Source: Comamonadaceae bacterium ALPHA2B
GTDB taxonomy: Bacteria > Pseudomonadota > Gammaproteobacteria > Burkholderiales > Burkholderiaceae_C
DNA: 64,000 bases
Direction of reading: 5' to 3'
Assembly: GCA_005503065.1 (NCBI GenBank)
Contig: SCOE01000002.1
Location: 62,001-126,000 of the forward strand
The translations under genes were made by a program, and so were the position numbers. The notes under the pieces were generated by a model. It was given only the letters and a program-made list of their open reading frames with translations. It did no database searches and had not been told where the DNA came from. This document shows, in pieces, positions 1-64,000 of this stretch (positions are counted from its first letter, which is position 1; every line of letters begins with the position of its first letter).

Positions 1-645
1 CATCAGCTCGCCCTGCCGCGAGAGCAAGGCGAAATTCTGCGCGACCGTCTTGCCGAAGCCGATGCCGGGATCGAGCACGATGCGGGCCGAATCGACCCCG
101 AGGGCGCATGCAGCCTGCGCCGAGCGCTTCAAAAAAGATAGCACCTGGGGCAGGACGTCGCCCTGCATCGGCGCCACCTGCATCGTCTGCGGATCGCGGT
201 GCATGTGCATCAGGCACACCCCGCAGGACGGATGGGCGGCCACCACCTCGGCGGCACCCGGACGGCGCAGCGCCCAGATGTCGTTGACGATGTCCGCGCC
301 CAGTTCGAGCACGGCGCGCATCACTTCCGGCTTGTAGGTGTCCACGGAGATGGGGACATCGAGCCGAACGGCCTCGCGCACCACTGGGAGCACCCGCGCC
401 AGTTCCTGGTCCAGCGGCACCGCCGGGCTGCCCGGCCGCGTCGACTCGCCCCCGATGTCGAGGATGTCGGCGCCCTCGGCCAGCAGCGCTTCGCAGTGCC
501 GAAGGGCTGTGGACGTGGACCCGTGGGCGCCGCCGTCGGAGAAGGAGTCGGGCGTGACGTTGACGATGCCCATCACTTGCGGACGCCGCAGGTCGATCCG
601 GTGCCGTGCGGTCTTCCATACAGCGGCCTGCCGGGAGGCGGTCAT
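1..645 (-). CDS. folP: Dihydropteroate synthase, 3' end cut by the window
   Basis: FolP condenses 6-hydroxymethyl-dihydropterin pyrophosphate with p-aminobenzoate to give dihydropteroate, in cytosolic folate synthesis, and is the sulfonamide target. The first 215 codons are visible. The protein begins MTASRQAAVWKTARHRIDLR and carries the family signature MGIVNVTPDSFSDGG, then DIGGESTRPG, DIVNDIW and DPGIGFGKT, which form the pterin and pyrophosphate site of the TIM barrel. About 60 C-terminal residues lie outside the window. It follows ftsH, as in many Proteobacteria (ftsH-folP-glmM), but a good intrinsic terminator lies between the two, so folP expression probably depends on read-through or its own promoter. 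A decayed copy of the 17-nt hairpin repeat sits at 126-142 and encodes part of VLSFLKRS. Confidence 0.95.
   Translation of the reverse strand, partial: MTASRQAAVWKTARHRIDLRRPQVMGIVNVTPDSFSDGGAHGSTSTALRHCEALLAEGADILDIGGESTRPGSPAVPLDQELARVLPVVREAVRLDVPISVDTYKPEVMRAVLELGADIVNDIWALRRPGAAEVVAAHPSCGVCLMHMHRDPQTMQVAPMQGDVLPQVLSFLKRSAQAACALGVDSARIVLDPGIGFGKTVAQNFALLSRQGELM
126..142. repeat. 17-nt hairpin repeat, copy 1 (decayed, inside folP)
   Basis: GCTTC-N7-ATAGC: the right arm is intact and the left arm has lost its TAT. Spacing is the same 5+7+5 seen in the other copies. In folP it lies in the phase where an intact copy would read TAG; the decayed arm reads AAG instead, so the frame stays open. 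Confidence 0.45.
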
Positions 646-672
646 GCGTGGACTGCCGGCAGGAGAAAGAAA

Positions 673-692
673 AACGGGGCCGAAGCCCCGTT
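673..692 (-). terminator. Intrinsic terminator of ftsH
   Basis: An 8-bp stem (AACGGGGC / GCCCCGTT) with a 4-base loop at 673-692 is followed, reading on the minus strand, by a T-rich run (complement of the A-rich 661-674). It lies between the ftsH stop at 713 and the folP start at 645. Confidence 0.85.
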
Positions 693-712
693 GTCCAAGC
701 GCAGCGCCACGC

Positions 713-2629: not shown

Positions 2630-2730
2630 ACGAAGCTCCAGTCGATGACGGGCGTGTGACGCGACACGCTCGGTAGGCAGTCAGTTGCGAGCCATTTTAG
2701 GCTTTTCAAGCTGCGAAAAGCCGTGAATTC

Positions 2731-2747
2731 CCTATGGGGACCATAGC
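2731..2747. repeat. 17-nt hairpin repeat, copy 2 (rlmE-ftsH gap)
   Basis: CCTAT-N7-ATAGC with the same 5+7+5 geometry; the stem is CTATGG/CCATAG with a 3-base loop. The flanking tail seen beside other copies is not recognisable, so membership rests on arm sequence and spacing. It lies downstream of rlmE and upstream of ftsH. Confidence 0.45.
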
Positions 2748-2817
2748 AGCGGGGCTTTCGCACGTGGCCTCGGCCTGAGGGCCGACAAGGGCGCGAGCTC
2801 ATTCGTATCCGGCTGTT

Positions 2818-3492: not shown

Positions 3493-3600
3493 GGGAGGTG
3501 GATCGGCGCGGTGCCTCGGGCAGTTTGATCGGGCGCAAGGCCGCAGCGTGGACATCGCGGTCCCAGGACGGCCTCGTCCGGTCGAGCGCGATGCTGGTTC

Positions 3601-4972: not shown

Positions 4973-5860
4973 TCAGTCCACCAGCGCCCGCCCCGTCAGC
5001 CTCTGCAGGATCGCCAGCGGGCTGGCCGACGGGTCGTACTCGCGCCCCGGAGGCAGGTAGAGCGTCTGCTCCATCATGTATTGGCCGGCCATGACGGCAT
5101 GCGAGGTCTGGTCGGAGAAGCACACCCAGGTAGAGCCGGCCGGGAACGGCACCTCTTCCTGGGGCGAGCTCCGCTGGTAGTCCATGTCGCCCTTCATGCC
5201 GTCGTGCAGCTGCAGCATGAGGTGGTCGTTCTCGCTGCGGAAGGACTTGGTCACGTGCAGTGCTTGCAGCGCCTTGGCCTGCCAGCGCACGTAGGGCTTG
5301 GCCTTGGGCAGGAAATTGCGCGCCACCGTCTCGAAAGGCTCGCCCACGCGCCACACGCGCGGCGCGCCCTCGGGGTTCACGTTGGTGAAGACACGCAGGA
5401 TGCGCTCCCCGTAGTTGGGCCTTGAAGGGAACGAGTCGACGTGCAGCCGACGGTCGTCGGCGCGCCAGGACTGGCTGCGCGTCTCCACCTGCGTGGGCCG
5501 GTAGCTGGTCGGCGCCAGGCGCAGCGAAGGCACGTAGTCCGGCAGCAGCCCGGCGATCAGCGCCTGCGCCTGCTGGCGGAAGCGGCCGATCATGCCGGCC
5601 AGCGCCGCCTGCGTGGCAGCATCGCCGGCCGCGCCCTTGAGCGTGCCGTCGACGTTCAGGCTGATGTTGCGCGACCTGGGGTCGCGGATGTCCGGCCGCA
5701 GGAACGCGCGCTCCTCGGGCAGGAAGTCGAAGCGCAGGTGCGGGAAGAAAAGCACCTTGCCCGCCTCCAGCGCCGCCGTCCACTCCGGCCGGCTGGCCAC
5801 GCCCTCCCAGGTGGCGGCGTCGATCTCGACGATCTGCGATTCGGCTTGCGTGGATGTCAT
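4973..5860 (-). CDS. kdoO: Kdo 3-hydroxylase, Fe(II)/2-oxoglutarate dependent
   Basis: KdoO proteins convert the outer Kdo of the lipopolysaccharide inner core to Ko using O2, Fe(II) and 2-oxoglutarate; the activity is established for enzymes of Burkholderia and Yersinia. The 295-residue protein matches that family: RLHVDSFPSRPNYGERILRV holds the HxD iron ligands (near residues 145-147), followed by FTNVNP, and TWVCFSDQTSHAVMAGQY holds the distal His and the region expected to bind 2-oxoglutarate. No signal peptide is seen, in line with a cytoplasmic or inner-face enzyme. The ATG at 5860 overlaps the stop of the DUF4149 gene by 4 bases, so the two are translationally coupled behind greA. Specific function is inferred from the family. 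Confidence 0.85.
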   Translation of the reverse strand: MTSTQAESQIVEIDAATWEGVASRPEWTAALEAGKVLFFPHLRFDFLPEERAFLRPDIRDPRSRNISLNVDGTLKGAAGDAATQAALAGMIGRFRQQAQALIAGLLPDYVPSLRLAPTSYRPTQVETRSQSWRADDRRLHVDSFPSRPNYGERILRVFTNVNPEGAPRVWRVGEPFETVARNFLPKAKPYVRWQAKALQALHVTKSFRSENDHLMLQLHDGMKGDMDYQRSSPQEEVPFPAGSTWVCFSDQTSHAVMAGQYMMEQTLYLPPGREYDPSASPLAILQRLTGRALVD

Positions 5861-6291
5861 GGGGCTCCCTGTCTCGATGCCTGCAGCCGCGCCTGGCGCC
5901 ACAGCAGCGCCGCGGCGCACAGCCACTGCAGCAGGTACATCCCGCTGCCGACCGCGTGCCAGAGCTTCAGGTTCTCGCGGGCGACGATGCGCGGCGCGAC
6001 GGCATACTCGCCCAGCAGCGCCAGCAACAGCCCGGTCACTATGAAAAAGATAGCTGCCGGCGCAGGTGCGACGGGCGTTGCAGCCCGATTCGACGTGGAA
6101 AGCAGCAGCACCAGCGCGCAGCCGATCGAGACCCAGCTCTGCGCCGTGAACAGCTTCGCCGCCATGGTGCCCGCGACGGCAGGCGTGGCCAGGTGAGCGA
6201 ACAGCATCGGCACGACGATGAAGCCGATGGCGGTGAGGCTGCCCCACCACAGCGCGATGGCGAAGAGCGCCAGGGCCTGCTTGAATCGCAC
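5857..6291 (-). CDS. DUF4149 domain membrane protein
   Basis: A 144-residue integral membrane protein with four hydrophobic segments (about 6-28, 53-66, 80-96 and 118-135) and the opening FKQALALFAIALWWGSLTAI typical of DUF4149. Function is unknown. I chose the GTG at 6291, 17 bases after the greA stop, because the first membrane helix follows at once; no ATG is available. It overlaps kdoO by 4 bases (ATGA). A copy of the hairpin repeat with its tail (6038-6091) is read through in frame and forms residues of the third helix and the Ala/Pro-rich loop before it (AATPVAPAPAAIFFIV), so part of this protein appears to be repeat-derived. Confidence 0.8.
   Translation of the reverse strand: MRFKQALALFAIALWWGSLTAIGFIVVPMLFAHLATPAVAGTMAAKLFTAQSWVSIGCALVLLLSTSNRAATPVAPAPAAIFFIVTGLLLALLGEYAVAPRIVARENLKLWHAVGSGMYLLQWLCAAALLWRQARLQASRQGAP
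6038..6091. repeat. 17-nt hairpin repeat with tail, copy 3 (inside DUF4149 gene)
   Basis: ACTAT-N7-ATAGC at 6038-6054, then a tail to the right ending in TGCAGCCCGATTCG. On the gene strand it reads GCT ATC TTT TTC ATA GT, encoding AIFFIV at residues 80-85. Confidence 0.7.
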
Positions 6292-11587: not shown

Positions 11588-12379
11588 TCAGGGGCCGCCG
11601 GACAGCCGGCCTGCCGCGCTCGCATGCAGGCAAATGGCGGCGGCCGCCGCCACGTTCAGCGACTCCTCGCCGCCCGGTTGGGCGATGCGGATATGCAGCG
11701 CGGCGCGCGCTTCCAGCGCCGGCGACACGCCCTGCCCTTCGTGGCCGAGCAGCCAGGCGCAGGGCATCGGCAGCCGAGCCTCGTGCAGCCACTCGCCGCG
11801 GTGCGAGCTGGTGGCGATCCATGGCATCTCCTGCAGGGCGTCGAGTGCGTCCGGATCCGCGCCCTCGACCAACTGCAGGCCGAAATGCGCGCCCATGCCC
11901 GCGCGCAGCACCTTGGGCGACCACAGCGCCGCCGTGCCCTTGAGCGCCACCACCTGGCCGAAGCCGAAGGCGGCTGCGCTGCGCAGGATGGAGCCCACGT
12001 TGCCAGGATCCTGCAGCCGGTCGAGCAGGACGGTCGGCACGGTGGTGGACAACCCCGGGGGCGGCGGCAGGTCGACCACGAAACCCACCGGCGCCGGCGA
12101 TTCGAGCCCGCTGCCGGCGGCCAGCAGTGCATCGTCGACCACTACGGTTTTGATAGCACCCTGCGCCCATTCCACGGGCGCCCGAGGCCAAAATGATTCC
12201 GAAAACACGGCGACGGACGGGCGCAGGCCTCGCGCCAGCGCGGCCCGGCACAGGTGGTCGCCCTCAAGCCACACCCGCCCCAGCTTGCGGTAGGCCCCGG
12301 GATCCTGAGCGAGCTTGCGCAACTCCTTGAGCAGCGGGTTGTCGCGCGACTGGATGCGTGTCGGCTCGGAAGGGCTCAC
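11588..12379 (-). CDS. TrmH/SpoU family rRNA 2'-O-methyltransferase
   Basis: SPOUT-class RNA ribose methyltransferase, probably acting on rRNA. The 263-residue protein has the N-terminal RNA-binding part with IQSRDNPLLKELRKLAQDP and the SPOUT knot with its three motifs: LLDRLQDPGNVGSILRSAAA, LLGHEGQGVS and PGGEESLNVAAAAAI. The exact target cannot be read. I chose the GTG at 12379, 13 bases after the rnhB stop; GTG at 12385 and ATG at 12436 are also open, the last overlapping rnhB by 44 bases. A decayed copy of the hairpin repeat (12141-12157) is read in frame as AIKTVV at residues 75-80, on the edge of the methyltransferase domain. It is the last gene of the rpsB-to-rnhB run. Confidence 0.9.
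   Translation of the reverse strand: MSPSEPTRIQSRDNPLLKELRKLAQDPGAYRKLGRVWLEGDHLCRAALARGLRPSVAVFSESFWPRAPVEWAQGAIKTVVVDDALLAAGSGLESPAPVGFVVDLPPPPGLSTTVPTVLLDRLQDPGNVGSILRSAAAFGFGQVVALKGTAALWSPKVLRAGMGAHFGLQLVEGADPDALDALQEMPWIATSSHRGEWLHEARLPMPCAWLLGHEGQGVSPALEARAALHIRIAQPGGEESLNVAAAAAICLHASAAGRLSGGP
12141..12157. repeat. 17-nt hairpin repeat, copy 4 (inside trmH-family gene)
   Basis: ACTAC-N7-ATAGC, right arm intact and left arm decayed. On the gene strand it reads GCT ATC AAA ACC GTA GT, the same codon phase as the copies in dxr and lpxB. Confidence 0.55.
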
Positions 12380-12392
12380 GGGCACGGCAGAC

Positions 12393-13085
12393 TCAGGCGG
12401 CGGGCTGCGACAGCGCGAGTTCGACGGTCTGCACATGGACGGTGACCGAGGCAGACATCACCGGCACGCGCGCCAGCGCCTGGGCCACCGGCGAGAAGGA
12501 ACGACGGTGGTGCACGCAGGCACCGTGCACCTGCAGGGCCGCCAGGTGCTCGGGCGTGCCGTAGCCCTTGTGGCCCGCGAAACCGTAGGCCGGAAATTCG
12601 GCATGCAGTTGCTCGCACAGCCGGTCGCGGTGCACCTTGGCCAGGATCGATGCGGCCGAGATGGCCTTCACCAGCGCATCGCCCTTGACCACCGCCTCCG
12701 CCAGCACGTCCAGCGTGGGCAGGCGGTTGCCGTCCACCAGCACCTTGGCGGGCTTGAGCCGCAGGCCGTCGACGGCGCGGCGCATGGCCAGCATCGTGGC
12801 GCCGAGGATGTTGTGGGTGTCGATCTCCTCCACGCTGGCCTGCGCGATCGAGCAGCAGAGCGCCTTGGCGAGGATCTGGTCGTGGAGCTTCTCGCGCTGC
12901 AGCGCCGTCAGCGTCTTGGAATCGGCCAGCCCGCGGATCGGCTTCTGGTCGTCCAGGATCACCGCGGCAGCCACGACCGGGCCGGCCAGCGGGCCGCGGC
13001 CGGCTTCGTCCACACCGGCCAGGAGACCCGGCGCGTCCCAGACCAGACGCGCTTGCTCAGCCTTCAAGAACTTTCTGGATCGCAT
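12393..13085 (-). CDS. rnhB: Ribonuclease HII
   Basis: RNase HII cuts RNA in RNA-DNA hybrids and removes misincorporated ribonucleotides. The 230-residue protein has the type 2 RNase H signature [20 protein letters not shown] with the first two acidic ligands (Asp and Glu near residues 25-26), then [15 protein letters not shown] and a later Asp in KVLVDGN. Length is a little over E. coli RnhB (198) because of the longer N-terminus. The ATG at 13085 overlaps lpxB by 29 bases; a TTG at 13067 inside the overlap is a possible alternative start. The lpxB-rnhB order is standard in Proteobacteria. Confidence 0.95.
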
Positions 13086-14211
13086 CGGCGCACAGTGTCG
13101 GCGTATCGCGCTGCAGTTGCACGTGCATGGCGGTGAATTTCCGCTCGGCCTCCTGCACCCGCGCCGGCTCCTGCAGCCAGGCCAGGGTGGCCTCGGCCAG
13201 CGCCTCGGGCGTGGCCGCGTCCTGCAGAAGTTCAGGCACCACGAACTCCCCGCACAGGATGTTGGGCAACCCGACCCACGGCTGCAGCTGCTGGCGGTGC
13301 ATCAGGTGCCAGGAGACACGGTTCATGTTGTAGGCGATGACCATGGGCCGCTTCAACAGCGCGGCTTCCAGCGTCGCCGTGCCGCTGGCGATCAGCGTCG
13401 CGTCGCAGGCCGCCAGCACGGCGTGCGACTGGCCATCGACCAGCTTGACTCTGCCCGCCATCGGGCTGGCGGCCAGCAGCTGCTCGGCCTCCACACGCAG
13501 GCTGGGAAGCACCGGCGCTATGAATTCGATAGCAGGCTGCGCCCGCTGCATGAGCGCTGCGGCCGAAAAGAACCTCGAAGCCAGGTAGCGCAGCTCGGAG
13601 CGCCGGCTGCCGGGCAGCAGCGCCACCACGGGCGCCTCGGCCGACAGCCCCAGGGCCCGCCGCGCCCCGGCCCGGTCCGGCTGCATGGGAATGACGTTGG
13701 CCAGCGGGTGGCCGACATAGCTCGCAGGCACGCCCTGCTCCGCCAGCAGCGCCGGCTCGAAGGGGAAGATGCACAGCACATGGTCGGCCGCGGCGCGGAT
13801 CTTCTCGATGCGATCCGCGCGCCAGGCCCAGATCGAGGGGCAGACGAAGTGCACGGTCTTGATGCCGCGCCCGCGCAGCGCCGCCTCGAGGTCGAGGTTG
13901 AAGTCAGGCGCATCGACGCCGATGAAGAGTTCGGGCCATTCGCGCAGGAGACGCGCCTTGAGCTGGCGGCGGATGGCGGCGATCTCGGCGTAGTGGCGCA
14001 GCACCTCGATGTAGCCGCGAACGGCCAGCTTCTCCTGCGGCCACCAGCTCTCGAAGCCGCGCGCGAGCATCTGCGGGCCGCCGATGCCGACCGTCTTCAG
14101 GTGGGGAAAACGGCGCTGCAGGCCGTCCAGAAGCAGGCCTGCGAGCAGGTCGCCCGAAGGCTCGCCGGCCACCAGGGCGAACTGGCGCGCCTGTTCGCTC
14201 TCGCCCGTCAT
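13057..14211 (-). CDS. lpxB: Lipid-A-disaccharide synthase
   Basis: LpxB joins UDP-2,3-diacylglucosamine to lipid X, making the beta-1',6-linked disaccharide of lipid A at the inner-membrane surface. The 384-residue protein has [31 protein letters not shown], the VDAPDFN segment and [11 protein letters not shown], all typical of the GT-19 fold, and length matches the family (about 382). It contains a well-preserved copy of the 17-nt hairpin repeat (13517-13533), read as AIEFIA at residues 227-232 between two Rossmann-type strands, so the essential enzyme tolerates this sequence. It lies 73 bases after lpxA and overlaps rnhB. Confidence 0.96.
13517..13533. repeat. 17-nt hairpin repeat, copy 5 (inside lpxB)
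   Basis: Perfect arms GCTAT and ATAGC around GAATTCG. On the gene strand the codons are GCT ATC GAA TTC ATA GC. A tail to the right is only partly recognisable (CTGCGCCCGCTGCA). Confidence 0.75.
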
Positions 14212-20973: not shown

Positions 20974-22170
20974 TCAGGCCGCCAGCCGGATCGCCGCCGC
21001 ATTGGCGGCCGCACGTGCGCTGGCGTCGAGCGCCAGCAGGTCCGCCAGCGATCCGGGATTGGAAGGCGCCACCGCCTCCAAAGTTTCCATGTTCACGGCG
21101 TGGATGCGATCGAAACGCAGGCGTCGGTCGAGGAAGGCCGCGACCGCGACCTCGTTGGCCGCATTGAGGACGGCGGTGGTTCCTGGTGGCGCGCGCAGTG
21201 TCTGCCAGGCGAGTTGGAGACCAGGAAAGCGCCCGGCATCCGGTACCTCGAAGGTCAGCGCGCCCAGCGTGCGGAAATCGAGACGCGCCGTGCCGCTTTC
21301 GACCCGCGCAGGCCAGGCCAGGCCACAGGCGATGGGCACCCGCATGTCCGGCGTGCCCAATTGCGCCAGCACGGAGCCGTCGACGAACTGCACCATCGAG
21401 TGGATCACGCTCTGCGGATGGATGACGACCTCGATCTGGTCCGGCGACACGCCGAACAGGTGGCGAGCCTCGATCACCTCAAGGGCCTTGTTCATCATGG
21501 TCGCCGAGTCCACCGAGATCTTGCGGCCCATGACCCAGTTGGGATGGGCGCAAGCCTGCTCGGGCGTGACGGCCGCGAGCGTGTGGGCCTCGCGCTGGCG
21601 GAACGGGCCGCCCGATGCGGTCAGGACGATCTTGTCGATGCGCTGGGGCCAGACCGCCGGGTCTTCCGGCAGGCACTGGAAGATCGCGGAATGCTCGCTG
21701 TCGATGGGCAGCAAGGTGGCGCCCCCACGGTGGACGGCGTCCATGAACAGTTCGCCGCCCACCACCAGCGCCTCCTTGTTGGCCAGCAAGAGGCGCTTGC
21801 CGGCGCGTGCCGCGGCGAGGCACGGCGCCAGGCCGGCCGCGCCGACGATGGCAGCCATGACGATGTCGACGTCCTCGTCGGATGCTATTGTTTCAATAGC
21901 ATCAGTCGCAGTGATGACGCGGGTTTCAAGCCCATTTTGCTTGAGCTTTTCGGCCAGCAGCGCAGCATGGGGCTCACTCGCCATGGCCGCGAACCGCGGC
22001 TTGAAGTGAGCGCATTGCGCGAGCAGCTCGTCCACCTTGGTCGCAGCCGAGAGCGCGAAGACCTCGAAACGCTCCGGGTGCCGGGCGATCACGTCGAGCG
22101 TGCTGACGCCGACCGAGCCGGTCGAGCCCAGCACGGTGACGCGTTGGCGGGGAACCGAGAGATTCTTCAC
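20974..22170 (-). CDS. dxr: 1-deoxy-D-xylulose-5-phosphate reductoisomerase
   Basis: Dxr rearranges and reduces DXP to 2-C-methyl-D-erythritol 4-phosphate in the MEP isoprenoid pathway and is the fosmidomycin target. The 398-residue protein has the NADPH motif [31 protein letters not shown] with the metal and substrate region, [10 protein letters not shown] and the C-terminal domain; length equals E. coli Dxr (398). The start is GTG at 22170, overlapping the cdsA stop by 4 bases (GTGA). A near-perfect copy of the hairpin repeat (21884-21946 with tail) lies in the N-terminal domain and is read as AIETIA at residues 91-96, with the tail encoding the preceding 16 residues. Confidence 0.97.
21884..21946. 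repeat. 17-nt hairpin repeat with tail, copy 6 (inside dxr)
   Basis: GCTAT-N7-ATAGC, with the stem extended to 10 bp (21881-21890 with 21894-21903) and a 3-base loop. The tail to the right ends AAGCCCATTTTGCTTGAGC, matching tails of copies in nnr and downstream of serB. Codons on the gene strand are GCT ATT GAA ACA ATA GC. Confidence 0.8.
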
Positions 22171-23767: not shown

Positions 23768-23828
23768 TGAAGGTCGGCGCAAGCGATGACCACGGGCGCC
23801 GCCGAGCGGCGCAGGGCCGCCCCAAGCC

Positions 23829-23885
23829 GCGAGCGCCCCCCCGGGGGGCAGCGACCCACGCGGAGCGGGCGGAGCGTGGGGGCCA
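23829..23885. repeat. GC-rich double-palindrome element between frr and uppS
   Basis: C7G6 at 23836-23848 forms one small palindrome and CCCACGC (23855-23861) pairs with GCGTGGG (23874-23880) as a second. It lies in the 121-base gap between frr and uppS, the longest gap in this part of the run. From general familiarity, similar GC blocks follow genes in related genomes; only one copy is in this window. Confidence 0.5.
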
Positions 23886-23888
23886 GGG

Positions 23889-24449
23889 TCATACCGCCAT
23901 GATCTCCGCCTCTTTGGCGGTGACCAGCTTGTCGATCTCGGCGATGTAGCGGTCGGTGACCTTCTGGATGTCGGCCTCGGCGCGCTTCTGGTCGTCCTCG
24001 GAGGCCTGCTTGTCCTTGACCAGCTTCTTCACGGCCTCGTTGGCATCGCGGCGCAGGTTGCGCGTGGCGATCTTGGCGCTCTCGCCCTCGTTGCGCGCCA
24101 GCTTGGTCATCTCCTTGCGGCGCTCCTCGCTCATCGGCGGCATCGGCACGCGGATGAGGTCGCCCATGCTGGCGGGATTCAGGCCCAGGTCGCTCTCGCG
24201 GATGGCCTTCTCGATCTTGGCGCCCATGCCCTTTTCCCAGGGCTGGACGCTGATCGTGCGCGCATCGATCAGCGCGACGTTCGCGACCTGCGACAACGGC
24301 ACCTGCGAGCCGTAGTACTCCACGTGCACCGCATCGAGCAGCGCCGGGTTGGCACGGCCGGTGCGGATCTTCGACAGGTTGTTCTGGAAGGCCGCGATCG
24401 ACTGTTTCATCTTCGCTTCGGCCTGATTGCGGATATCTGCAATGGTCAT
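23889..24449 (-). CDS. frr: Ribosome recycling factor
   Basis: RRF works with EF-G to split post-termination ribosomes. The 186-residue protein (E. coli 185) begins [20 protein letters not shown] and has [20 protein letters not shown], the loop of the beta domain, then [14 protein letters not shown] of the three-helix domain. The ATG at 24449 has GGAGA 8 bases upstream and overlaps the pyrH stop by one base (TGATG). The pyrH-frr-uppS order is standard. Confidence 0.97.
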
Positions 24450-27334: not shown

Positions 27335-28678
27335 ATGACCGAACCCGCCGCACTCCCCGATCTCGTCGCCACCCGCGAAGCCCTGCAGGCCGGCCGTACC
27401 GACGCCCGCACCGAACTGGAGCGCGCCATCGCGGCGGCCCAGGCGGCCGCCAGCACCCACAGCTTCCTGCGCACCGACTTCGAAGGCGCCCGCATCGCCG
27501 CATCGGCCGCGCGCCCCGAGCAGCCGCTGGCCGGCCTGGCGGTGTCGGTCAAGGACCTGTTCGATATCGCCGGGCAGCCCACGCCGGCCGGCTCGGTGGT
27601 GCTGGCCCACTCGCCGGCGGCCGCCACCCACGCCCCTGCCGTCGCGCGCCTGCTGGCAGCCGGCGGCGCGCTGATCGGCCGCACCAACATGACCGAATTC
27701 GCCTTCTCCGGCGTCGGCGTGAACCCCCACCACGGGACGCCGGCGAACGTGGCCGATGCCCGGACCCCGCGTGTGCCGGGCGGTTCGTCGTCGGGCGCCG
27801 CGATCTCGGTGGCGACCGGCGCGGCCTTCGTCGGCCTGGGCTCGGACACCGGCGGCTCGATCCGCATCCCCGCTGCCCTGAACGGCATCGTCGGCTTCAA
27901 GAACACCGCGCGCCTGGTGCCCACGGCCGGCGCCGTGCCGCTGTCGACCACGCTCGACACCGCCTGCGCGATGACGCGCTCGGTGCGCGACGCCATCGTC
28001 GCTCACGAAATCCTGGCGGACCGCCGCGTCACGCCCGACGCCACCCCGCTCGCACAGCGCCGTCTCGCCGTGGTGAAGGACCTCTTCCTCGACGGCCTTG
28101 ACGCCACGGTCGCCGCCGCCTTCGAGCGCACGCTGCGCCGGCTGCGCGCGACTGGCGCAGCGATCGACGAGATCGCCCTCCCCCCGCTGGCCGACCTGCC
28201 GGCGATCAACGCCACGGGCGGCTTCTCGGCGGCCGAGGCCTACGCCTGGCACCGCCTGCTCCTGGAACGCAGCGCGGCCGGCTACGACCCGCGCGTGGCG
28301 CAGCGGATCCTCAAGGGCGCGGCGATGAAGGCCTACGAGTACATCGACCTGGTCCACGCGCGCGCCGCGTGGATCGCCCGCATGGCGTCGGCGCTGGCGC
28401 CCTACGACGCGATCCTCTCGCCCACCGTGCCCATCGTCGCGCCGCCCCTGGCCGACGTCGCGCCGGGCGAGCCGCGCGATGCCGAGTTCTTCCGGGTCAA
28501 CGCGCTGCTGCTGCGCAACCCCTCGGTCGTCAACATGCTCGACGGCTGTGCGATCTCGATCCCCTGCCATGCGCCGGGCGAACTGCCGGTGGGCCTGATG
28601 CTGTGGCACGGTGCGCTGCACGACGACACCGTGCTCGCCATCGCGGCCCAGGCCGAAGAGGTGCTACGAATTCGATAG
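27335..28678 (+). CDS. Amidase, amidase-signature family
   Basis: A 447-residue amide hydrolase of the Ser-cisSer-Lys family. The triad is visible: Lys in AVSVKDLFDIAG (near 71), cis-Ser in GGSSSGAAIS (near 150) and the nucleophile Ser in GLGSDTGGSIRIPAALNGIV (near 171). The substrate is not readable; the family includes GatA, aryl-amidases and allophanate hydrolases. The true start is the ATG at 27335 (MTEPAALPDLV), not the long upstream extension that crosses the rpsB leader. The last codons (CTA CGA ATT CGA TAG) lie inside a copy of the 17-nt hairpin repeat, so the stop codon is repeat-derived and the ancestral C-terminus was probably a little different. Confidence 0.92.
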   Translation: MTEPAALPDLVATREALQAGRTDARTELERAIAAAQAAASTHSFLRTDFEGARIAASAARPEQPLAGLAVSVKDLFDIAGQPTPAGSVVLAHSPAAATHAPAVARLLAAGGALIGRTNMTEFAFSGVGVNPHHGTPANVADARTPRVPGGSSSGAAISVATGAAFVGLGSDTGGSIRIPAALNGIVGFKNTARLVPTAGAVPLSTTLDTACAMTRSVRDAIVAHEILADRRVTPDATPLAQRRLAVVKDLFLDGLDATVAAAFERTLRRLRATGAAIDEIALPPLADLPAINATGGFSAAEAYAWHRLLLERSAAGYDPRVAQRILKGAAMKAYEYIDLVHARAAWIARMASALAPYDAILSPTVPIVAPPLADVAPGEPRDAEFFRVNALLLRNPSVVNMLDGCAISIPCHAPGELPVGLMLWHGALHDDTVLAIAAQAEEVLRIR

Positions 28679-28728
28679 CTGCCTGCGCAGGCGCGGCGTG
28701 GCCTGGAGCCCGATTCGCTTCGAATTTC
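28663..28728. repeat. 17-nt hairpin repeat with tail, copy 7 (supplies amidase stop)
   Basis: GCTAC-N7-ATAGC at 28663-28679, then a tail containing CTGCGCAGGCGCGGCG and ending AGCCCGATTCGCTTCGAAT. The TAG at 28676-28678 ends the amidase gene. Confidence 0.8.
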
Positions 28729-28912: not shown

Positions 28913-30169
28913 ATGAAAATCGCCATCGTGGGCGCCGGCATCATCGGCGTGACCACTGCCTGGGAGCTGGCCTGCGACGGCCACGAGGTCCACGTCTTCG
29001 ATCGCCGCGGCGCCGCCGCCGAGGAATCCAGTTTCGCCAATGCCGGCGTGGTCGCTCCGGGCTACGTGACCCCCTGGGCCGCACCGGGCATGCGCATGAA
29101 GGTGCTGCGCTCGCTGCTCTCCTCGCACGGCGCCATCAAGCTGCGCTGGCCCCTCAGGGCGCGCGACATCGGCTGGATGCGCCAATGGCAGCGCGCCTGC
29201 CAGCTCGAGACCTACCTGGCCAACCGCGCCCGCATGCAGCGCCTGGCCTTCTACAGCCGCACGCGCCTGCACGAGATCGTCCAGGCGCGCGAGCTGAGCT
29301 ATGAGCGCAGCGACGGCTACCTCGTGCTGCTGCGCGGCAAGCGCGAGAAGAAGCTCGTGCAGCCGGGCCTCGACGTGCTGCGCGAGGCCGGCACGGTGTT
29401 CCGCGAGGTCGACGCCGACGAGGCGCGCCGCATCGAGCCGGCCCTGTCGACCGACAGCAAACTGGTGGGCGCCATCCACCTGCCCGAGGACGAGGTGGGC
29501 AACTGCCGCCAGTTCGCGATGCTGCTCAAGCGCGAGGCGGAGGACTTCGGCGTGCAGTTCTTCTTCAACTGCGACATCGCACCACTGTCGCGCGCGGCGC
29601 CACGCTCGCTGCAACTGGCGGCCGGCTCCGAGGCCGTGCCCTACGACGCCGTCGTGGTGTGCGCCGGCGTGGGCTCGGCCGGGCTGCTCGGGCCGCTGGG
29701 CGTCCGCATCCCGATCGCGCCGGTGTACGGCCACTCCATCAGCGCCGCCATCCGCGAACCGCTCAATGCGCCGCGCAGCGCCGTGATGGACGAGCGCTAC
29801 AAGGTCGCGATCAGCCGGCTGGGCCTGCGCGTGCGCGTGGCCGGCAGCGCCGAACTGGGCGGCGACCCCGCCACCCTGCACCCGGCCGCGCTGCAGACGC
29901 TCTACAAGGTGCTGCACGACTGGTTCCCCGGCGCCGCGCAGCTCGGTTCGGGCGTGCAGCAGTGGAAGGGCGCGCGTCCCATGCTGCCCGACGGCCCGCC
30001 CGTCATCGGCCCCAGCGGCGTACCCGGCGTTTGGCTCAACCTCGGCCATGGCTCCAGCGGCTGGGCGCTGTCCTGCGGCAGCGCGCGCGTGCTGGCCGAC
30101 ATGGTGGGCGGCCGGGCGTCGGAGATCGACCTCGACGGGCTGGGGCTGGAACGGCTGCTGCACGCCTGA
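28913..30169 (+). CDS. DadA-like FAD-dependent D-amino acid dehydrogenase
   Basis: A 418-residue flavoprotein of the DAO/DadA family, which oxidises D-amino acids to oxo-acids and passes electrons to the respiratory chain. The FAD-binding Rossmann motif is at the start (MKIAIVGAGIIGVTTAWEL), followed by EESSFANAGVVAPGYVTPWA, the DadA-type segment, VVVCAGVGS and the C-terminal GVWLNLGHGSSGWALSCGSA. Length is close to E. coli DadA (432). No alanine racemase gene is next to it, so D-alanine use is only a possibility. The ATG at 28913 is the first consistent with the motif. The stop codon TGA is also the first three bases of an inverted-repeat element. Confidence 0.9.
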   Translation: MKIAIVGAGIIGVTTAWELACDGHEVHVFDRRGAAAEESSFANAGVVAPGYVTPWAAPGMRMKVLRSLLSSHGAIKLRWPLRARDIGWMRQWQRACQLETYLANRARMQRLAFYSRTRLHEIVQARELSYERSDGYLVLLRGKREKKLVQPGLDVLREAGTVFREVDADEARRIEPALSTDSKLVGAIHLPEDEVGNCRQFAMLLKREAEDFGVQFFFNCDIAPLSRAAPRSLQLAAGSEAVPYDAVVVCAGVGSAGLLGPLGVRIPIAPVYGHSISAAIREPLNAPRSAVMDERYKVAISRLGLRVRVAGSAELGGDPATLHPAALQTLYKVLHDWFPGAAQLGSGVQQWKGARPMLPDGPPVIGPSGVPGVWLNLGHGSSGWALSCGSARVLADMVGGRASEIDLDGLGLERLLHA

Positions 30170-30331
30170 GAAGCTGTGAACGAACCGACCCCGTCCGCTC
30201 GACGCGCCCTGACGACGCCCCTCGTCGTTGCAAATGCTCGCCATAGCCCGAGCTATGGCTGCGCTTTGCGCCTCGATGGGCGCCGCCCTGGCGCGCCGCT
30301 CGAACGCGGCCGATTCATTCTCAGCTTCTGA
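30167..30331. mobile_element. MITE-like element with terminal inverted repeats
   Basis: The ends 30167-30184 (TGAGAAGCTGTGAACGAA) and 30314-30331 (TTCATTCTCAGCTTCTGA) are inverted copies with 15 of 18 matches. In the middle, 30240-30247 and 30252-30259 form an 8-bp perfect stem (GCCATAGC / GCTATGGC) with a 4-base loop. The 165-base unit has no ORF I can support and lies between the dadA-like gene and nnr. It looks like a non-autonomous miniature transposable element or REP-type repeat; no target-site duplication was identified. Confidence 0.6.
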
Positions 30332-30375
30332 GTCACGGCATGCCGCCCGCGTGTGGCCGGCCTCAGAATCGGCGC

Positions 30376-31890
30376 ATGCAGCGCATCCATCCCGACCGCA
30401 TCCCCGCCCCGCTGCCGCTGTACGGCACGCAGGCCACGCGGCGCCTCGAACAGGCGGCCGCAGCCGCTGTGCCTTCGCACACGCTGATGCAGCGTGCGGG
30501 GCTGGCGGTGGCACGCCTGGCGATGGCCGTCGCGCCGCACGCGCGCTCGGTGTGGGTCGCCTGCGGCCCCGGCAACAATGGCGGCGACGGCTTCGAGGCG
30601 GCCATGCACCTGCAGCAGCGCGGCTACGCACCCACCGTGACCTGGATCGGCGACCCGGCACGCCTGCCGCCCGACGCGCAGGCGTCGCTGCGCCGTGCGC
30701 AGGCGGCCGGCGTCGCGATCGCCCACGAGCCGCCGGCGGCACCCGACCTCGTCATCGACGCCCTGCTTGGCCTGGGCAGCACGCGTGCCCCCGAAGGCCG
30801 CATGGCGGAGTGGCTTCGGCGCATGCGCGAAGGCGCAGCACCGGTGCTGGCGGTCGACCTGCCGTCGGGCCTGGATGCCGACACGGGCCGCCACGCTATG
30901 ACTTTCATAGCGTCTGGCGCCCGTCCCGCGGCCGCTGCAGCCCGTTTCTGCTTGAGCCTGCTGAGCCTGAAGCCGGGCCTCTTCACCGCCGAGGGCCGCG
31001 ACTGGGCCGGCGAAGTCTGGTTCGACGACCTGGGTTGCGCGGCCGTGCCTGGGATCGAGGCCGATGCCGAGCTGGCCGCCGCACGGGTCGACGCGCCACG
31101 CGCCCACGCGTCGCACAAGGGCAGCTACGGCGATGTCGCCGTGCTCGGCGGTGCGCCGGGCATGGCGGGCGCTGCCGTGCTGGCCGCGACCGCCGCCTTG
31201 CACGTTGGCGCCGGGCGTGTGTTCGTCGGTCTGCTGGGCGCCGAGCTGGCCTGGGACAGCATCCAACCGGAGTTGATGTTCCGCGATGCCGGCTCGCTGC
31301 CCTCTGCCGGACAGACGCTGGTCTGCGGCTGCGGCGGCGGCGACGCGGTACGCGCCGTGCTGCCGCGCGCGCTGGCCCACGCCGGGCCGCTGGTGCTGGA
31401 CGCGGATGCGCTCAATGCGCTGGCGTGTGACGCGCAGCTGCGGTTGCTCCTCGCCGCGCGCGAAGCCGCCACGGTGATGACGCCCCATCCGCTCGAGGCG
31501 GCGCGCCTGCTGGGCGTCGACACGCGCAGCGTGCAGGCCGACCGCCTGGCCGCGGCGCAGACGCTGGCCGACCGGCACGGCTGCACGGTCGTGCTCAAGG
31601 GCTCGGGCAGCGTCGTCGCCCACCCGGGCGCACGGCCGTCGATCAACCCGACGGGCAACGCGCGGCTGGCCACGGCGGGCACGGGCGACGTGCTGGCCGG
31701 CATGGTGGGCGCCGCCCTCGCCGCCGGCCACCCGCCGCGCGAGGCCGCGATCGCCGCCGTGTGGCAGCACGGCGCCCTGGCCGATCGCTGGCCGGCCGAC
31801 CGGCCGCTGACGGCCTCCGCCCTGGCGCGCGGCGGCCTCCAAAAGAAAAACGGGCCCGAAGGCCCGTCCTGCTTGCGCAAGCAGCTATAG
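30376..31890 (+). CDS. nnr: Bifunctional NAD(P)H-hydrate epimerase / ADP-dependent dehydratase
   Basis: Nnr repairs hydrated NADH and NADPH: the N-terminal YjeF-type domain (about 1-215) epimerises R- and S-NAD(P)HX and the C-terminal ribokinase-like domain (about 230-480) dehydrates the S form using ADP. Visible motifs are CGPGNNGGDGFEAAMHL and DLPSGLDADTG in the first, and HKGSYGDVAVLGGAPGMAGA and NARLATAGTGDVLAGMVGAA with the catalytic Asp in the second. The 504 residues match E. coli YjeF (515). Two repeat copies affect it: one at 30895-30957 encodes AMTFIA plus an Ala-rich stretch within the epimerase domain, and one at 31862-31900 supplies the TAG stop. The last 16 codons also read through the hairpin that terminates the opposing SDR transcript. 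Confidence 0.93.
   Translation: MQRIHPDRIPAPLPLYGTQATRRLEQAAAAAVPSHTLMQRAGLAVARLAMAVAPHARSVWVACGPGNNGGDGFEAAMHLQQRGYAPTVTWIGDPARLPPDAQASLRRAQAAGVAIAHEPPAAPDLVIDALLGLGSTRAPEGRMAEWLRRMREGAAPVLAVDLPSGLDADTGRHAMTFIASGARPAAAAARFCLSLLSLKPGLFTAEGRDWAGEVWFDDLGCAAVPGIEADAELAAARVDAPRAHASHKGSYGDVAVLGGAPGMAGAAVLAATAALHVGAGRVFVGLLGAELAWDSIQPELMFRDAGSLPSAGQTLVCGCGGGDAVRAVLPRALAHAGPLVLDADALNALACDAQLRLLLAAREAATVMTPHPLEAARLLGVDTRSVQADRLAAAQTLADRHGCTVVLKGSGSVVAHPGARPSINPTGNARLATAGTGDVLAGMVGAALAAGHPPREAAIAAVWQHGALADRWPADRPLTASALARGGLQKKNGPEGPSCLRKQL
30895..30957. repeat. 17-nt hairpin repeat with tail, copy 8 (inside nnr)
   Basis: Perfect GCTAT-N7-ATAGC at 30895-30911, stem extended to 8 bp (30893-30900 with 30906-30913). 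The tail to the right ends CTGCAGCCCGTTTCTGCTTG. Codons are GCT ATG ACT TTC ATA GC, residues 174-179. Confidence 0.8.
31850..31867 (-). terminator. Intrinsic terminator of the rnr-SDR transcript, inside nnr
   Basis: ACGGGCC / GGCCCGT with a CGAA loop, followed on the minus strand by TTTTTCTTTT. It ends transcription from the SDR gene (stop at 31923) but lies within the last codons of the convergent nnr gene. Confidence 0.85.
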
Positions 31891-31900
31891 AAAAGATAGC
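31862..31900. repeat. 17-nt hairpin repeat with tail, copy 9 (supplies nnr stop)
   Basis: Perfect GCTAT-N7-ATAGC at 31884-31900 with the tail to the left. The 20 bases 31862-31881 are identical, in reverse complement, to the tail of the copy inside cobS (63575-63628). The TAG at 31888-31890 ends nnr. Confidence 0.85.
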
Positions 31901-31922
31901 GATTGCGCAGCAGCTTGCGCGG

Positions 31923-42219: not shown

Positions 42220-42927
42220 CTACTTGAGCTGCACCGACCCCGAGACGTTGACCACCACCGTGGTCTTGCCGGCCTCGACCGGGATCGGAGCGTCGGCTGC
42301 CGAGAAGGACTTAGCCTCTGCCGCCATCATGCGCGGACGGATCGGGCCGCCCTCGTTCGCGTTGACCGACACCTCGCGCAGCGTGTAGCTGCCGAAGCCG
42401 AAGTCCTTGGCCAGTTCGGCCGCCTTGCGCTTGAAGTTCTCGATCGCCTGGGTCTGCGCCTCGCCTTCGGACTTCAGGCGCTGCTCGCGGCTGAGCGCGA
42501 AGCCCACGTTGCCGACGTTCAGCGTGCTGATGCGGCCGGCCGCGCGCGTGATGCGCGGGAAATCGCGCCCTTCCAGCACCAGTTCGGCGCTGCCCTGCCA
42601 CCCGTTGATCTTGCCGTCGCGCGTGTAGCGCGGCGACAGGCTGAAGTTGCCCGTGCGCACGTCCATCTGGCCCGGCTGCGCATCCTTCTTCGCTTCGGCG
42701 AGGGCGGCGTCGATCGCCGTGCGAAGCTGGCTCTGCACCGTTGCCGCATCGGTGGCATCGCGCGTGGTGACCAGCGTCATGTTCAGCAGGTCCTGCTGCA
42801 CCTCGACCGTTCCGTTGGCGGACAGCTGCAGCACGTTCTGCGGCTGCGCGGCTCCGCTCCCTTGGGCAAATACGGCCCCTGCGCCCGCCAGTGCTGCGCA
42901 GGCCGCTATCAACTTAATAGCATTCAA
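42220..42927 (-). CDS. SIMPL (DUF541) domain secreted protein
   Basis: A 235-residue exported protein of the SIMPL/DUF541 family, whose members are periplasmic or surface proteins with largely unknown roles (some linked to oxidative stress or to signalling partners). Signal peptide about 1-22 (KLIAACAALAGAGAVFA-QGS). Mature part opens LQLSANGTVEVQQDLLNMTL, the family's usual first strand, and has VNVSGSVQLK at the end. I chose the TTG at 42927 because GGGAG lies about 9 bases upstream and no ATG or GTG fits. The hairpin repeat at 42905-42921 encodes residues 3-8 (AIKLIA) of the signal peptide, so the export signal starts inside the repeat. Confidence 0.85.
   Translation of the reverse strand: MNAIKLIAACAALAGAGAVFAQGSGAAQPQNVLQLSANGTVEVQQDLLNMTLVTTRDATDAATVQSQLRTAIDAALAEAKKDAQPGQMDVRTGNFSLSPRYTRDGKINGWQGSAELVLEGRDFPRITRAAGRISTLNVGNVGFALSREQRLKSEGEAQTQAIENFKRKAAELAKDFGFGSYTLREVSVNANEGGPIRPRMMAAEAKSFSAADAPIPVEAGKTTVVVNVSGSVQLK
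42905..42921. repeat. 17-nt hairpin repeat, copy 10 (signal peptide of SIMPL gene)
   Basis: Perfect GCTAT-N7-ATAGC. On the gene strand: GCT ATT AAG TTG ATA GC, two codons after the TTG start. No convincing tail. Confidence 0.65.
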
Positions 42928-45776: not shown

Positions 45777-45790
45777 TTTCCGAGCGGATC

Positions 45791-45843
45791 GGCCTGCAGC
45801 CCAAGCAGGACGGACGCCGGACGCTATCAATTCGATAGCGTCC
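45791..45843. repeat. 17-nt hairpin repeat, copy 11 (between envZ and ispF)
   Basis: Perfect GCTAT-N7-ATAGC at 45823-45839, with the stem extended to 9 bp (45819-45827 with 45835-45843). A partial tail lies to the left (CTGCAGCC, AAGCAGGACGG). It sits between the convergent envZ and ispF genes and could act as a terminator hairpin, though no T run follows. Confidence 0.75.
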
Positions 45844-55174: not shown

Positions 55175-55191
55175 GGCCAGGCCACCGCTTT

Positions 55192-55257
55192 GCTATCGTT
55201 TTCGTAGCTGCTCGCGCAGGCGGGGCAGGCGCTGCAGCCCGATTTGGCTCAAATTTC
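55192..55257. repeat. 17-nt hairpin repeat with tail, copy 12 (between serB and DUF6172-like)
   Basis: GCTAT-N7-GTAGC at 55192-55208, then the longest and clearest tail: CTCGCGCAGGCGGGGCAGGC, then GCTGCAGCCCGATTTGGCTC, then AAATTTC. The TGA that ends the convergent DUF6172-like gene (55249-55251) lies in the tail. Confidence 0.85.
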
Positions 55258-61676: not shown

Positions 61677-61772
61677 CCCTCCCGACGAGCTCGCCTCGCG
61701 CCGAGGGCGAGGCCTGGGCGCCCTCGGCATGCCGTCGATGAGCGCGCGCGATGCACAAGACAATGGCGGGTC

Positions 61773-62414: not shown

Positions 62415-62472
62415 ACGCCATGGGCATTCGACATCGCCTTCCACCATGCCGCTCACCGAACGAGGTCCCACG

Positions 62473-62838
62473 ATGAACCCTTCGTCCCGCTCGCGCGCCG
62501 TCCTGGCGCTGCATCTCGCGCTGCTCGCCGTCGCCGCCGGCGCGCAGCCGGCCTGGGCGCCGAAGCCGCCCAACCCCAACGCGCCCTACCCCGCCGAGTC
62601 GCGCGATGCCAACGAGCAGGGCACGGTGCTCCTGCGCGTGCGCACCACGCCCGATGGCCAGCCCGTCGAGGTGCGGGTGCACCAGTCCAGCGGCTTTGCC
62701 CGACTGGACCGCTCGGCGCTGGAGACGGTGAAGAAATGGCAGTTCCGTCCCACGCCGGACGACGGCACCGTGGTGTGGCGCGAAGTGCCGATCAGCTTCT
62801 TCATCACATCGCCGCCGCCGCGGCCGGTGCTCAACTAG
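62473..62838 (+). CDS. TonB C-terminal domain protein
   Basis: A 121-residue protein with an N-terminal hydrophobic signal or anchor (SRAVLALHLALLAVAAGAQP, about 6-25) and a C-terminal TonB domain (TVLLRVRTTPDGQPVEVRVH and LDRSALETVKKWQFRPTPDD, ending [16 protein letters not shown]). The Pro-rich middle of real TonB proteins is short, so it may be a small exported TonB-like protein rather than an energy transducer; no ExbB/ExbD genes are beside it. The ATG at 62473 is preferred to 62446 as it puts the hydrophobic stretch at the N-terminus. It overlaps the convergent cobC-like gene by 8 bases. Confidence 0.85.
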   Translation: MNPSSRSRAVLALHLALLAVAAGAQPAWAPKPPNPNAPYPAESRDANEQGTVLLRVRTTPDGQPVEVRVHQSSGFARLDRSALETVKKWQFRPTPDDGTVVWREVPISFFITSPPPRPVLN

Positions 62839-63430
62839 CCGCGCCTCGGCCAGCGTCGCAGGCGTGCGCTGCGCCGATGTCGATCTCGATGCAGCGGCGG
62901 GCACCGAAGGCCATCGGCGCCGAAGGCCAGTCCGCGGCGCTGACCGGTACGCGCATGCCGCGAGCGATCAGTTCCACGGCGCGCATCACGCCGGAATGCG
63001 TGATCCAGACCGTGTCGCGACCACCGGCCCGCCAGTCGTCCCAGGCCGCGCCCACGCGGGCCATGAAGCGGCGCGTGCTTTCGCCGTGGCCACCGGCGGG
63101 CGCATCGGCGAAGTCGTCGGTCCATGCCTGCAGTTCGGCACGCGCGATGGCCTGCCACGCCTGACCCTCCCAGGCGCCGAAGTCCATCTCGGCAAGCCGG
63201 GCGTCGACGCGGGCCGGCGGCAGGTCGGGCCTCAAGGCGGCCAAGGCCTGGGCCAGCCCCACGCAGCGGCGCAGCGGCGAAGTCCAGGGCACCACAGCGG
63301 TCGGCAGTTCGGCCGCCAGCGCCGCCGCGGCGGCCTGCGTGGCCTCGTCTTCGGCCGCATGGTCCGTCGCGCCGTAGCACAGGCCCGGTGCGCACAGCAC
63401 GGGCGCGTGGCGTTGCAGCCAGAGCTTCAT
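62831..63430 (-). CDS. cobC: Histidine phosphatase, alpha-ribazole phosphatase-like
   Basis: A 199-residue histidine-phosphatase superfamily protein ([20 protein letters not shown], with RHAP in place of the usual RHG, and [14 protein letters not shown] for the phosphate pocket; the second His in [11 protein letters not shown]). The position directly after cobS, with a 4-base ATGA overlap, and the sequence point to CobC, which dephosphorylates alpha-ribazole 5'-phosphate or adenosylcobalamin 5'-phosphate late in B12 synthesis. The symbol rests on context plus family. Confidence 0.82.
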
Positions 63431-64000
63431 GCGAGCCGCCATGCCAGCACCCCGTAGACCGCCAGTTCGCACACCTGCTGGGTCGCACCCAGGCCGTCGC
63501 CCGTGAAGCCCTGCAGGCGCCGGCGGAACAGGCCGGCCATCCAGGCGCCCGCCGCCACCACTGCCAACAGCATTGCTCCTGTTTTCATAGCGCCTTGCGC
63601 AAGCAGGACGGGCGCTGCAGCCGGAATCGACCACAAGATGCCGGCCGCGAGCGCACCGCCGCCGATGGCGTCGGCCAGCGGCTTGGACTTGCTCGCCCCG
63701 CTGTCGCCCACGTAGGGCAGGAAGCGGATCAGGAACAGAGGCGCGAGGCGCGACAACACATGCGCCCCAAGGAGCGCGGCCACCACCGACGCCGCGCCCT
63801 GCTGCGCGATGGCTGCCAGCAGCGCCACCTTGAGCCCGAGCGCCAGCACCAGCGCGATGGCCCCGAAGGCGCCGATGCGCGAGTCCTTCATGATCTCCAG
63901 CGCCCGTTCGCGCTGGGCACTGCCGCCCAGCCCGTCGGCCACGTCGGCCAGCCCGTCCTCGTGGAAGGCACCGGTGAGCCAGACGGTGGCGACGGTGCTG
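63427..64000 (-). CDS. cobS: Adenosylcobinamide-GDP ribazoletransferase, 5' part outside the window
   Basis: CobS, an inner-membrane enzyme, joins adenosylcobinamide-GDP with alpha-ribazole to make adenosylcobalamin. The last 190 residues are visible: [20 protein letters not shown] with the conserved acidic motif, [36 protein letters not shown] and [16 protein letters not shown] near the C-terminus, with several hydrophobic helices between. The first part lies beyond the window. A copy of the hairpin repeat with tail (63575-63628) is read in frame as [16 protein letters not shown] within a membrane loop/helix region. Confidence 0.92.
63575..63628. repeat. 17-nt hairpin repeat with tail, copy 13 (inside cobS)
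   Basis: GCTCC-N7-ATAGC, right arm intact and left arm decayed, with a tail to the right (CTTGCGCAAGCAGGACGGGC, then GCTGCAGCC). Codons on the gene strand begin GCT ATG AAA ACA GG, the same phase as the dxr and lpxB copies. Confidence 0.75.

Follow-up and report, generated by a model that had tools for sequence, protein, structure and literature searches.

We analysed a 64,000-nucleotide stretch of the genome of Comamonadaceae bacterium ALPHA2B (contig SCOE01000002.1, positions 62,001 to 126,000; hereafter the window), in which a short palindrome with a conserved tail recurs inside and between genes, lpxB and dxr among them. The unit is about 64 nt long. It consists of a 17-bp dyad, GCTAT-N7-ATAGC, which we call H1, followed by a tail with a GCGC-N11-GCGC stem and GGCCgATTTGGC. 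The window's genome (6.0 Mb) is referred to as G000, and G071, G177 and G255 are genomes of the same genus.

Copies of the element in the window

Searching the window with a profile trained on 31 perfect copies, of which 6 come from the window itself, gives 12 elements: 11 score 31.0-50.1 bits and one is marginal. The lpxB gene (13057-14211, minus strand) holds a copy at 13516-13568 (plus, 42.2 bits) and dxr (20974-22170, minus) another at 21883-21945 (plus, 34.1 bits); at both places G255 and G177 have sequence of equal length without the element. Likewise, a DUF4149 gene (5857-6291, minus; Pfam) contains a copy at 6039-6100 (plus, 50.1 bits; common to G071), where G177 is of equal length without the element and G255 is 9 nt longer. 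A SpoU-family RNA methyltransferase gene (11588-12385, minus; Pfam SpoU) contains one at 12144-12202 (plus, 31.0 bits), where G255 is of equal length without it and G177 is 43 nt longer with poorly aligned flanks. In a cobS-like gene (63427-63942, minus; Pfam CobS) the copy at 63575-63631 (plus, 33.8 bits) is common to G071; its profile match spans 63581-63631, and H1 starts at 63575. The called gene at 30376-31890 (plus), which from its LPSGLDADTG motif we take to be NnrD/NnrE-like, has one copy inside, at 30893-30955 (plus, 44.8 bits; relatives 15-18 nt shorter), and a second over its 3' end between convergent genes, at 31840-31901 (minus, 39.9 bits; relatives 37-50 nt shorter).

The copy at 28662-28724 (plus, 41.6 bits; common to G071) crosses the 3' end of a called gene (27335-28678, plus), and that at 42864-42923 (minus, 41.7 bits; common to G071) lies by the called start of a SIMPL-domain gene (42220-42834, minus; Pfam SIMPL on a longer open reading frame). 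Intergenic copies between convergent neighbours are found at 45777-45840 (minus, 41.3 bits; perfect dyad) and 55191-55253 (plus, 48.0 bits; common to G071). The marginal copy, at 81-143 (minus, 12.0 bits, E 0.08), stands in what its DPGIGFGK motif leads us to presume is a folP-like gene; the G071 ortholog scores 21.9 bits and G255 is of equal length without the element. This copy is tallied as intergenic below and is probably inside a gene running into unfetched bases.

The dispersed palindrome-plus-tail family is real. Ten places in the window fit GCTAT-N7-ATAGC with at most one mismatch, against 0.24 expected from shuffles, and the perfect dyad occurs 284 times in G000 and never in the reversed control. 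Likewise, the profile gave no match at 10 bits or above on reversed sequences. These three lines, shuffle expectation, reversed control and profile search, rule out a chance origin, which the original prediction had already judged unlikely. Its description is borne out: the copies form a dispersed family, their 5+7+5 geometry is fixed and the tail is conserved. The six dyads it called perfect (13517, 21884, 30895, 31884, 42905 and 45823) are perfect. The 20-nt tail that it reported as common to the copies at 31884 (minus strand) and 63575 is present in the sequence. Of the 13 copies claimed, 11 are clear members and the one at 126 is marginal, but 2731 is no member by the profile; the window reads CCTATGGGGACCATAGC at 2731-2747, which comes close to the dyad but lacks profile support. 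Extrapolating from the sampled ratio (42 perfect dyads among 79 members), we put the total in G000 at about 500 copies.

Copies align over about 64 nt almost without gaps, with the consensus TT-GCTAT-N7-ATAGC-TGCTnGCGC-N11-GCGCTnnAGGCCgATTTGGCTTnaAA. The free positions of the unit are GC-rich in G000 and AT-rich in other genera. Before H1 the consensus reads TT or AT, with AGCA on the other strand; a GT[AG]G tag at 0-2 nt on the 5' side of the palindrome is missing. The tail had been predicted on either side of the dyad. It always lies on the same side of H1, but it is seen on both strands, because H1 itself is palindromic.

Placement and distribution

A retrained gene caller was used to tally the placement of 79 elements from about 0.54 Mb of G000. 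The stretches had been picked partly for their matches, so that their densities do not stand for genome averages. Fifty-five elements are intergenic and 10 lie at gene ends; the other 14 are in genes, and 13 of these are more than 60 nt away from the gene ends. In this sampled part of G000, elements are over-represented between convergent genes and under-represented between divergent ones: of the intergenic elements 21 are in convergent, 26 in co-oriented and 8 in divergent gaps, compared with 49, 137 and 89 among all gaps of at least 60 nt. Element strand is independent of gene strand (35 with, 39 against).

As a separate observation, adjacent elements in G000 lie on the same strand in 56 of 70 cases against 36 expected (stretches of contigs C1, C2, C4 and C22), in runs that span some tens of kb and have no relation to gene strand. 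Such an excess of same-strand neighbours was not seen in G190, from a sparser and stricter list (27 of 54). There, 36 of 55 elements lie with the skew-leading strand (p = 0.03); the skew of G071 is too noisy, and we do not use the comparison as support.

At least one perfect match occurs in 198 of 299 family genomes; many genera have tens to hundreds of them, and many others have 0-3. In the genus of the window, perfect copies number 206 in G071, 1 in G177 and 2 in G255 beside the 284 of G000. The profile found 47 elements at 12 bits or above in 0.30 Mb of G071, and no element at 10 bits or above in the 0.13-0.14 Mb taken from each of G255 and G177. Scanning named genomes gave at least 114 stretches with an element. 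Among the 80 loci listed are Acidovorax, Rhodoferax, Polaromonas, Xenophilus, Simplicispira, Giesbergeria, Curvibacter, Xylophilus, Ottowia and one Rubrivivax metagenome-assembled genome, and several come from records named only at higher rank. The genera belong to or are near Comamonadaceae.

Carriage as plasmid or phage cargo was considered and rejected: one near-consensus copy had no blastn match among plasmids or phages. The strict pattern occurs in 29 IMG/VR stretches, of which 25 have profile matches, mostly one each; these stretches are possibly provirus flanks.

Conservation of the H1 arms

We examined how the element changes between closely related genomes. Of the 79 sites in G000, 37 are scorable in G071, and 34 of these are shared. 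Among the 3 absent sites one is of equal length and has probably decayed, and two have shorter sequence, maybe through deletion. In the opposite direction, 47 sites of G071 were examined and 36 of the 38 scorable ones are shared with G000. Across 35 ortholog pairs, changes fall at 13 of 350 arm positions, 37 of 244 loop positions, 313 of 1534 tail positions and 605 of 5581 flanking positions, giving per-site values of 0.037 for the H1 arms, 0.152 for the loop and 0.204 for the tail. The reverse comparison gives 14/370 for arms and 38/259 for loop, and intergenic copies 8/210 and 24/146. Because elements were picked by intact arms in one species, the arm rate may be too low by a factor of two at most, and with the rate doubled the comparison with the loop still gives p = 0.004. 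The earlier statement that the loop varies while the arms are kept is hereby quantified.

In G000 the two arms vary independently of each other. Among the 79 copies the 3' arm is retained in 68 and the 5' arm in 48, and the combinations GCTAC/ATAGC and GCTAT/GTAGC occur 12 and 3 times, respectively; GCTAC/GTAGC does not occur, and no compensatory H1 pair is found in the 79. Furthermore, seven copies do not fold better than their shuffles (z -1.70 to +0.25). Since the two sides of H1 vary independently, compensation is nearly lacking and folding is no better than in shuffles, the constraint looks like a constraint on sequence. As far as comparison of copies can tell, H1 seems to behave mainly as a sequence-specific dyad under selection, more than as a hairpin. 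Hairpin constraint and template-switch repair of H1 are both disfavoured, compensatory changes being almost nil. The contrary result is that 4 of 130 copies from named genomes carry a compensatory C..G at the innermost H1 pair (z 2.1).

The hairpin of the original prediction is thus doubtful for GCTAT-N7-ATAGC, but a stem appears better supported in the tail. In G099, a genome of another genus whose tail differs, several copies have a tail stem of GCCC/GGGC or near that instead of GCGC/GCGC. Compensatory G-C to C-G cells occur in 6 of 60 aligned sequences, all six from G099; the remaining loci could not show such compensation, because the GCGC stem was demanded when they were fetched. The inner pairs of the tail stem give z 3.7-4.7 and partners slid by one column up to 6.3; in the 60-sequence alignment the slid score is lower. 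A third hairpin, within GGCCgATTTGGC, was rejected as it shows no covariation.

The tail stem raises the possibility of a structured RNA or a terminator-like element, which would also suit the excess between convergent genes. We consider this very improbable. No Rfam family reaches its gathering score at the elements, and the only sub-threshold match over a copy is CcsR1 at 6013-6091 (19 vs 65.3 bits). The consensus has no T-run, the copies folded resemble shuffles, and orientation is unrelated to gene strand, while the compensation itself comes from G099 in an alignment otherwise fetched for GCGC.

Copies inside genes without change of length

Ten of the 13 copies deep inside genes can be compared with G255 and/or G177. 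Seven of them have equal length in at least one relative, and the other 3 differ by multiples of 3. LpxB and DXR of G000 align without gaps to solved structures across the element region. In G255 and G177 the ten segments of equal length score -48 to -92, inside the range of their own synonymous recodings (p 0.12-0.80), whereas the seven corresponding copies in G000 score +35 to +67. Relatives' segments of equal length are therefore at background, and at these places the element was either gained or tracelessly lost while the length stayed the same. The copies in lpxB and dxr are not products of simple insertion. The original prediction had named alignment in relatives as ordinary coding sequence as a refutation of the family. 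Several in-gene copies do align at equal length, but the aligned sequence is not element-like, which speaks against insertion and not against the family.

All 13 deep copies outscore each of 3000 synonymous recodings of their own protein; as resemblance was how these copies were found, the result is partly to be expected. By a matrix made from 16 intergenic copies outside the window, in-gene tails are far above background, and weaker in lpxB and dxr. As a side observation, several antisense in-gene copies share a reading frame, and the peptides they encode are alike (AQ or AP, x, A, I/M ...), as though a gene could bear the element chiefly where its protein accommodates a stretch rich in alanine.

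It is possible, and in our judgement unlikely, that the element is copied over existing sequence. A single-stranded copy, perhaps freed by an HuH transposase, would anneal at partly similar places during replication and replace the DNA there; inside genes only length-neutral, protein-compatible replacements would survive. Spread of this kind, possibly aided by a TIRYT-class HuH enzyme, could reach even lpxB and dxr, the dyad being selected afterwards as a genome-wide protein-binding site. Such replacement would account for the equal lengths and multiples of 3, for the background-like segments of the relatives, for the scores above all recodings and for the gapless LpxB and DXR alignments. Yet neither an intermediate nor a mechanism was observed and no in-gene gain was caught between G000 and G071, the recoding score is in part circular, and the lpxB and dxr tails are weaker than most. 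Several intergenic sites resemble insertions or deletions. Furthermore, three sites fit poorly: 12144 with its longer G177 sequence, C22:46260, which is 24 nt shorter in G177, and C22:40679, where the relatives are so different that equal length says little.

Sites could also have emerged in place, a functional or uptake-favoured site being made by point mutation and then selected or preferentially imported. DNA uptake sequences are sites selected or preferentially imported in this way. Length-neutral in-gene copies, slowly changing H1 arms and the weaker tails in lpxB and dxr would all agree with this origin. It would nevertheless require about 60 nt of ordered sequence to arise by mutation in several genes since the split from G177 and G255, and no partial form is seen in the ten equal-length segments of these genomes. 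A tail that changes at 0.2 per site is also hard to reconcile with selection able to build it, and we hold emergence in place to be rather improbable.

A tyrosine transposase gene beside gltB

A single Y1_Tnp gene was found in G000 (Pfam Y1_Tnp above cut-off). It encodes 231 aa and lies between what we take, from their sequences, to be a methyltransferase-like gene and gltB. The protein (P0001) has the motifs NHFH, LWEGR and YIDLNP, the last one residue off YIELNP; with its length these make up the motif set of TIRYT/TnpA-Y1 subclass 2.1. On NCBIfam REP_Tyr_transpos it scores 71.9 bits, below the cut-off of 80. The parts of PMC6006769 available to us give subclass 2.1 as having NH[YF]H, W[EQ] and a YIELNP-like motif in about 238 aa, being without REPs and probably representing TIRYTs. 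Judged by its motifs, the gltB-linked transposase looks like a member of this subclass.

Downstream of the gene, GGGGWSAS is present in 27 of the 30 best homologue loci and in 17 of 20 picked loci, and TGTCCC in 26 of the 30 best. GGGGWSAS is found upstream, within 200 nt, in 16 of the 30 best and 10 of the 20 picked loci. In many high-copy genomes GCTAT-N7-GATRTGTCCC, containing the left part of H1, lies between the transposase stop and TGTCCC. Over 50 loci, comprising the 30 best homologues and 20 picked by hand, an H1-like half-site lies no more than 130 nt from the stop in 17 of the 26 genomes that have at least 12 copies versus 4 of 24 with fewer (Fisher p = 0.0006); the same expression matches 46 of 3000 random windows. 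In both G000 and G071 the stop is followed by a tail-like stretch before the half-site is reached (weight matrix 47.2 and 18.6). An element profile match was noticed upstream of the transposase gene in locus L046, in a chance look rather than a systematic upstream search. The original prediction had suggested a REP-type transposase (RayT) linked to full-length copies. A Y1 tyrosine transposase gene does have element-like sequence just behind it; the gene is TIRYT-like and the sequence includes an H1-like half-site. The link between transposase and repeat is suggestive.

Could the family be a TIRYT/REP-type miniature transposon and nothing more, with no function for the host and with copies that are now fixed and decaying? 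The transposase gene with its downstream GGGGWSAS repeat and H1 half-site, the REP-like placement, and copies that are shared between species and decaying would be expected of one. However, change in the H1 arms is several-fold slower than in loop and tail, the lpxB and dxr copies are not insertions, and the GTAG/GTGG tag is missing from the consensus. We regard this explanation as improbable.

A putative protein-binding dyad

We favour, tentatively and at a little less than an even chance, the reading that the family is an old REP-like repeat of Comamonadaceae whose dyad now serves as a putative protein-binding site. A dimeric host protein would recognise the sequence of H1 in double-stranded DNA, and H1 would be kept because of this binding. 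The origin of the family may be tied to the TIRYT-type tyrosine transposase whose single gene stands beside gltB; the left half of H1 lies near the 3' end of that gene. The congeners without the element, G177 and G255, would have lost it or never gained it. A dyad that changes more slowly than its own loop and tail at hundreds of sites should therefore have a common binding partner and a genome-scale role.

Several observations weigh against a protein-bound, transposase-derived repeat. No binding protein for H1 was identified. Taken alone, the in-gene copies show a weak contrast between arms (3/100) and loop (8/70; p = 0.05). Compensatory H1 pairs are also missing from the 60 aligned sequences, most of which were fetched or picked for intact arms, and the compensated pairs in four named-genome copies point the other way. 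As to the transposase, homologues (1e-20) are present in 282 of the 299 family genomes regardless of element count, mostly one per genome. G256, a 100% complete genome, has 121 perfect dyads and no transposase match at 1e-20; its congeners G072 and G178 have one. A TIRYT gene should have an inverted repeat upstream, but none lies within 200 nt in G000, G071, G177 and G255, and the half-site comparison is confounded by relatedness, with 20 of the 50 loci chosen by hand. Comparison of G000 and G071 gave no clean recent insertion with target duplication. Finally, length-neutral in-gene copies do not fit plain transposition; they are the strangest part of the family, not explained by insertion.

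Small repeats of this kind are usually explained as inserted and neutral, or as locally co-opted. How housekeeping genes come to hold length-neutral copies is a question to which insertion models give no answer.

Comparison with known repeats

The original prediction knew of no description of the family, which is not quite right. Two motif pairs are given in the parts of PMC5217627 (2017) available to us: ATAGCT(N)22CAAAAG, with 125 copies in Polaromonas naphthalenivorans CJ2, and GCTTAT(N)5AAGCG, with 114 copies in Acidovorax ebreus TPSY. Both appear there as unnamed potential novel motifs, mostly intergenic and close to gene ends. The letters of the CJ2 pair fit the element as ATAGCT, tail and CAAAAG, and those of the TPSY pair fit the tail stem as GCGCTTAT-N5-AAGCGC. 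Motif matches fall inside elements in 10 of 12 cases in 20 Acidovorax loci and 2 of 3 in 11 Polaromonas loci, an overlap favoured by the choice of loci that hold an element. The two pairs are probably fragments of the family. In those parts of PMC5217627 the motif account does not include the dyad, the full unit, the family-wide spread, the slow arms, the in-gene copies or the transposase. Five 14-mers of the element core had no match in the literature searched.

Other repeats are present in the window. The one at 30164-30332 is about 169 nt long and its ends are approximately inverted (GAAGCTGTGAACGAA / TTCATTCTCAGCTTC). G071 lacks it at the orthologous position but has two copies elsewhere that are 96-98% identical to it, and the repeat looks like a miniature inverted-repeat transposable element. 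A second dispersed repeat, at 23797-23910 (CCCCCCGGGGGGCAGCG...CGGAGCGTGGGGG), has many copies in G071 and G255, and in G255 several times two stand in succession, about 82-91 nt apart. In size and tandem habit it resembles BRE, which it fits better than the dyad family does, judging from the parts of PMC3110155 available to us. BRE of Bordetella and relatives is described there as 75-91 nt long, often in tandem, and 69% GC in Bordetella. The dyad family is like BRE in being dispersed and mostly intergenic with some in-gene copies, and BRE is reported in Comamonadaceae too (PMC3110155). In contrast to the frequent tandems of BRE, the closest two of the 79 G000 members are 125 nt apart and the next 364. 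By that description BRE is probably a different repeat.

In habit the family resembles REP/REPIN sequences with their RAYT genes, as far as the available parts of PMC8266576, PMC6006769 and PMC8049555 describe them: it is short, largely intergenic, present in hundreds of copies, long kept, and accompanied by a single-copy Y1 transposase gene. With a unit in the 20-65 nt range, 284 perfect copies and 55 of 79 sampled members intergenic, it has the dimensions of a REP. Unlike REP/REPIN, its consensus lacks the GT[AG]G tag, its dyad seems to be kept in sequence more than in pairing, and the linked gene resembles a subclass that those parts of PMC6006769 report without REPs. The likeness to TIRtrons and their TIRYT genes, as the accessible parts of PMC3733652 and PMC6006769 present them, lies in the gltB-linked gene itself, with its NHFH and YIDLNP motifs, its 231 aa and the downstream GGGGWSAS of 27 of 30 loci. 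Unlike in TIRtrons, the dispersed repeat is not the terminal repeat; the half-site abuts its TGTCCC part. The consensus of the dispersed copies consists of H1 and tail without GGGGWSAS, dispersed GGGGWSAS itself not having been searched for. A transposase subclass described as REP-less thereby gains a candidate dispersed partner.

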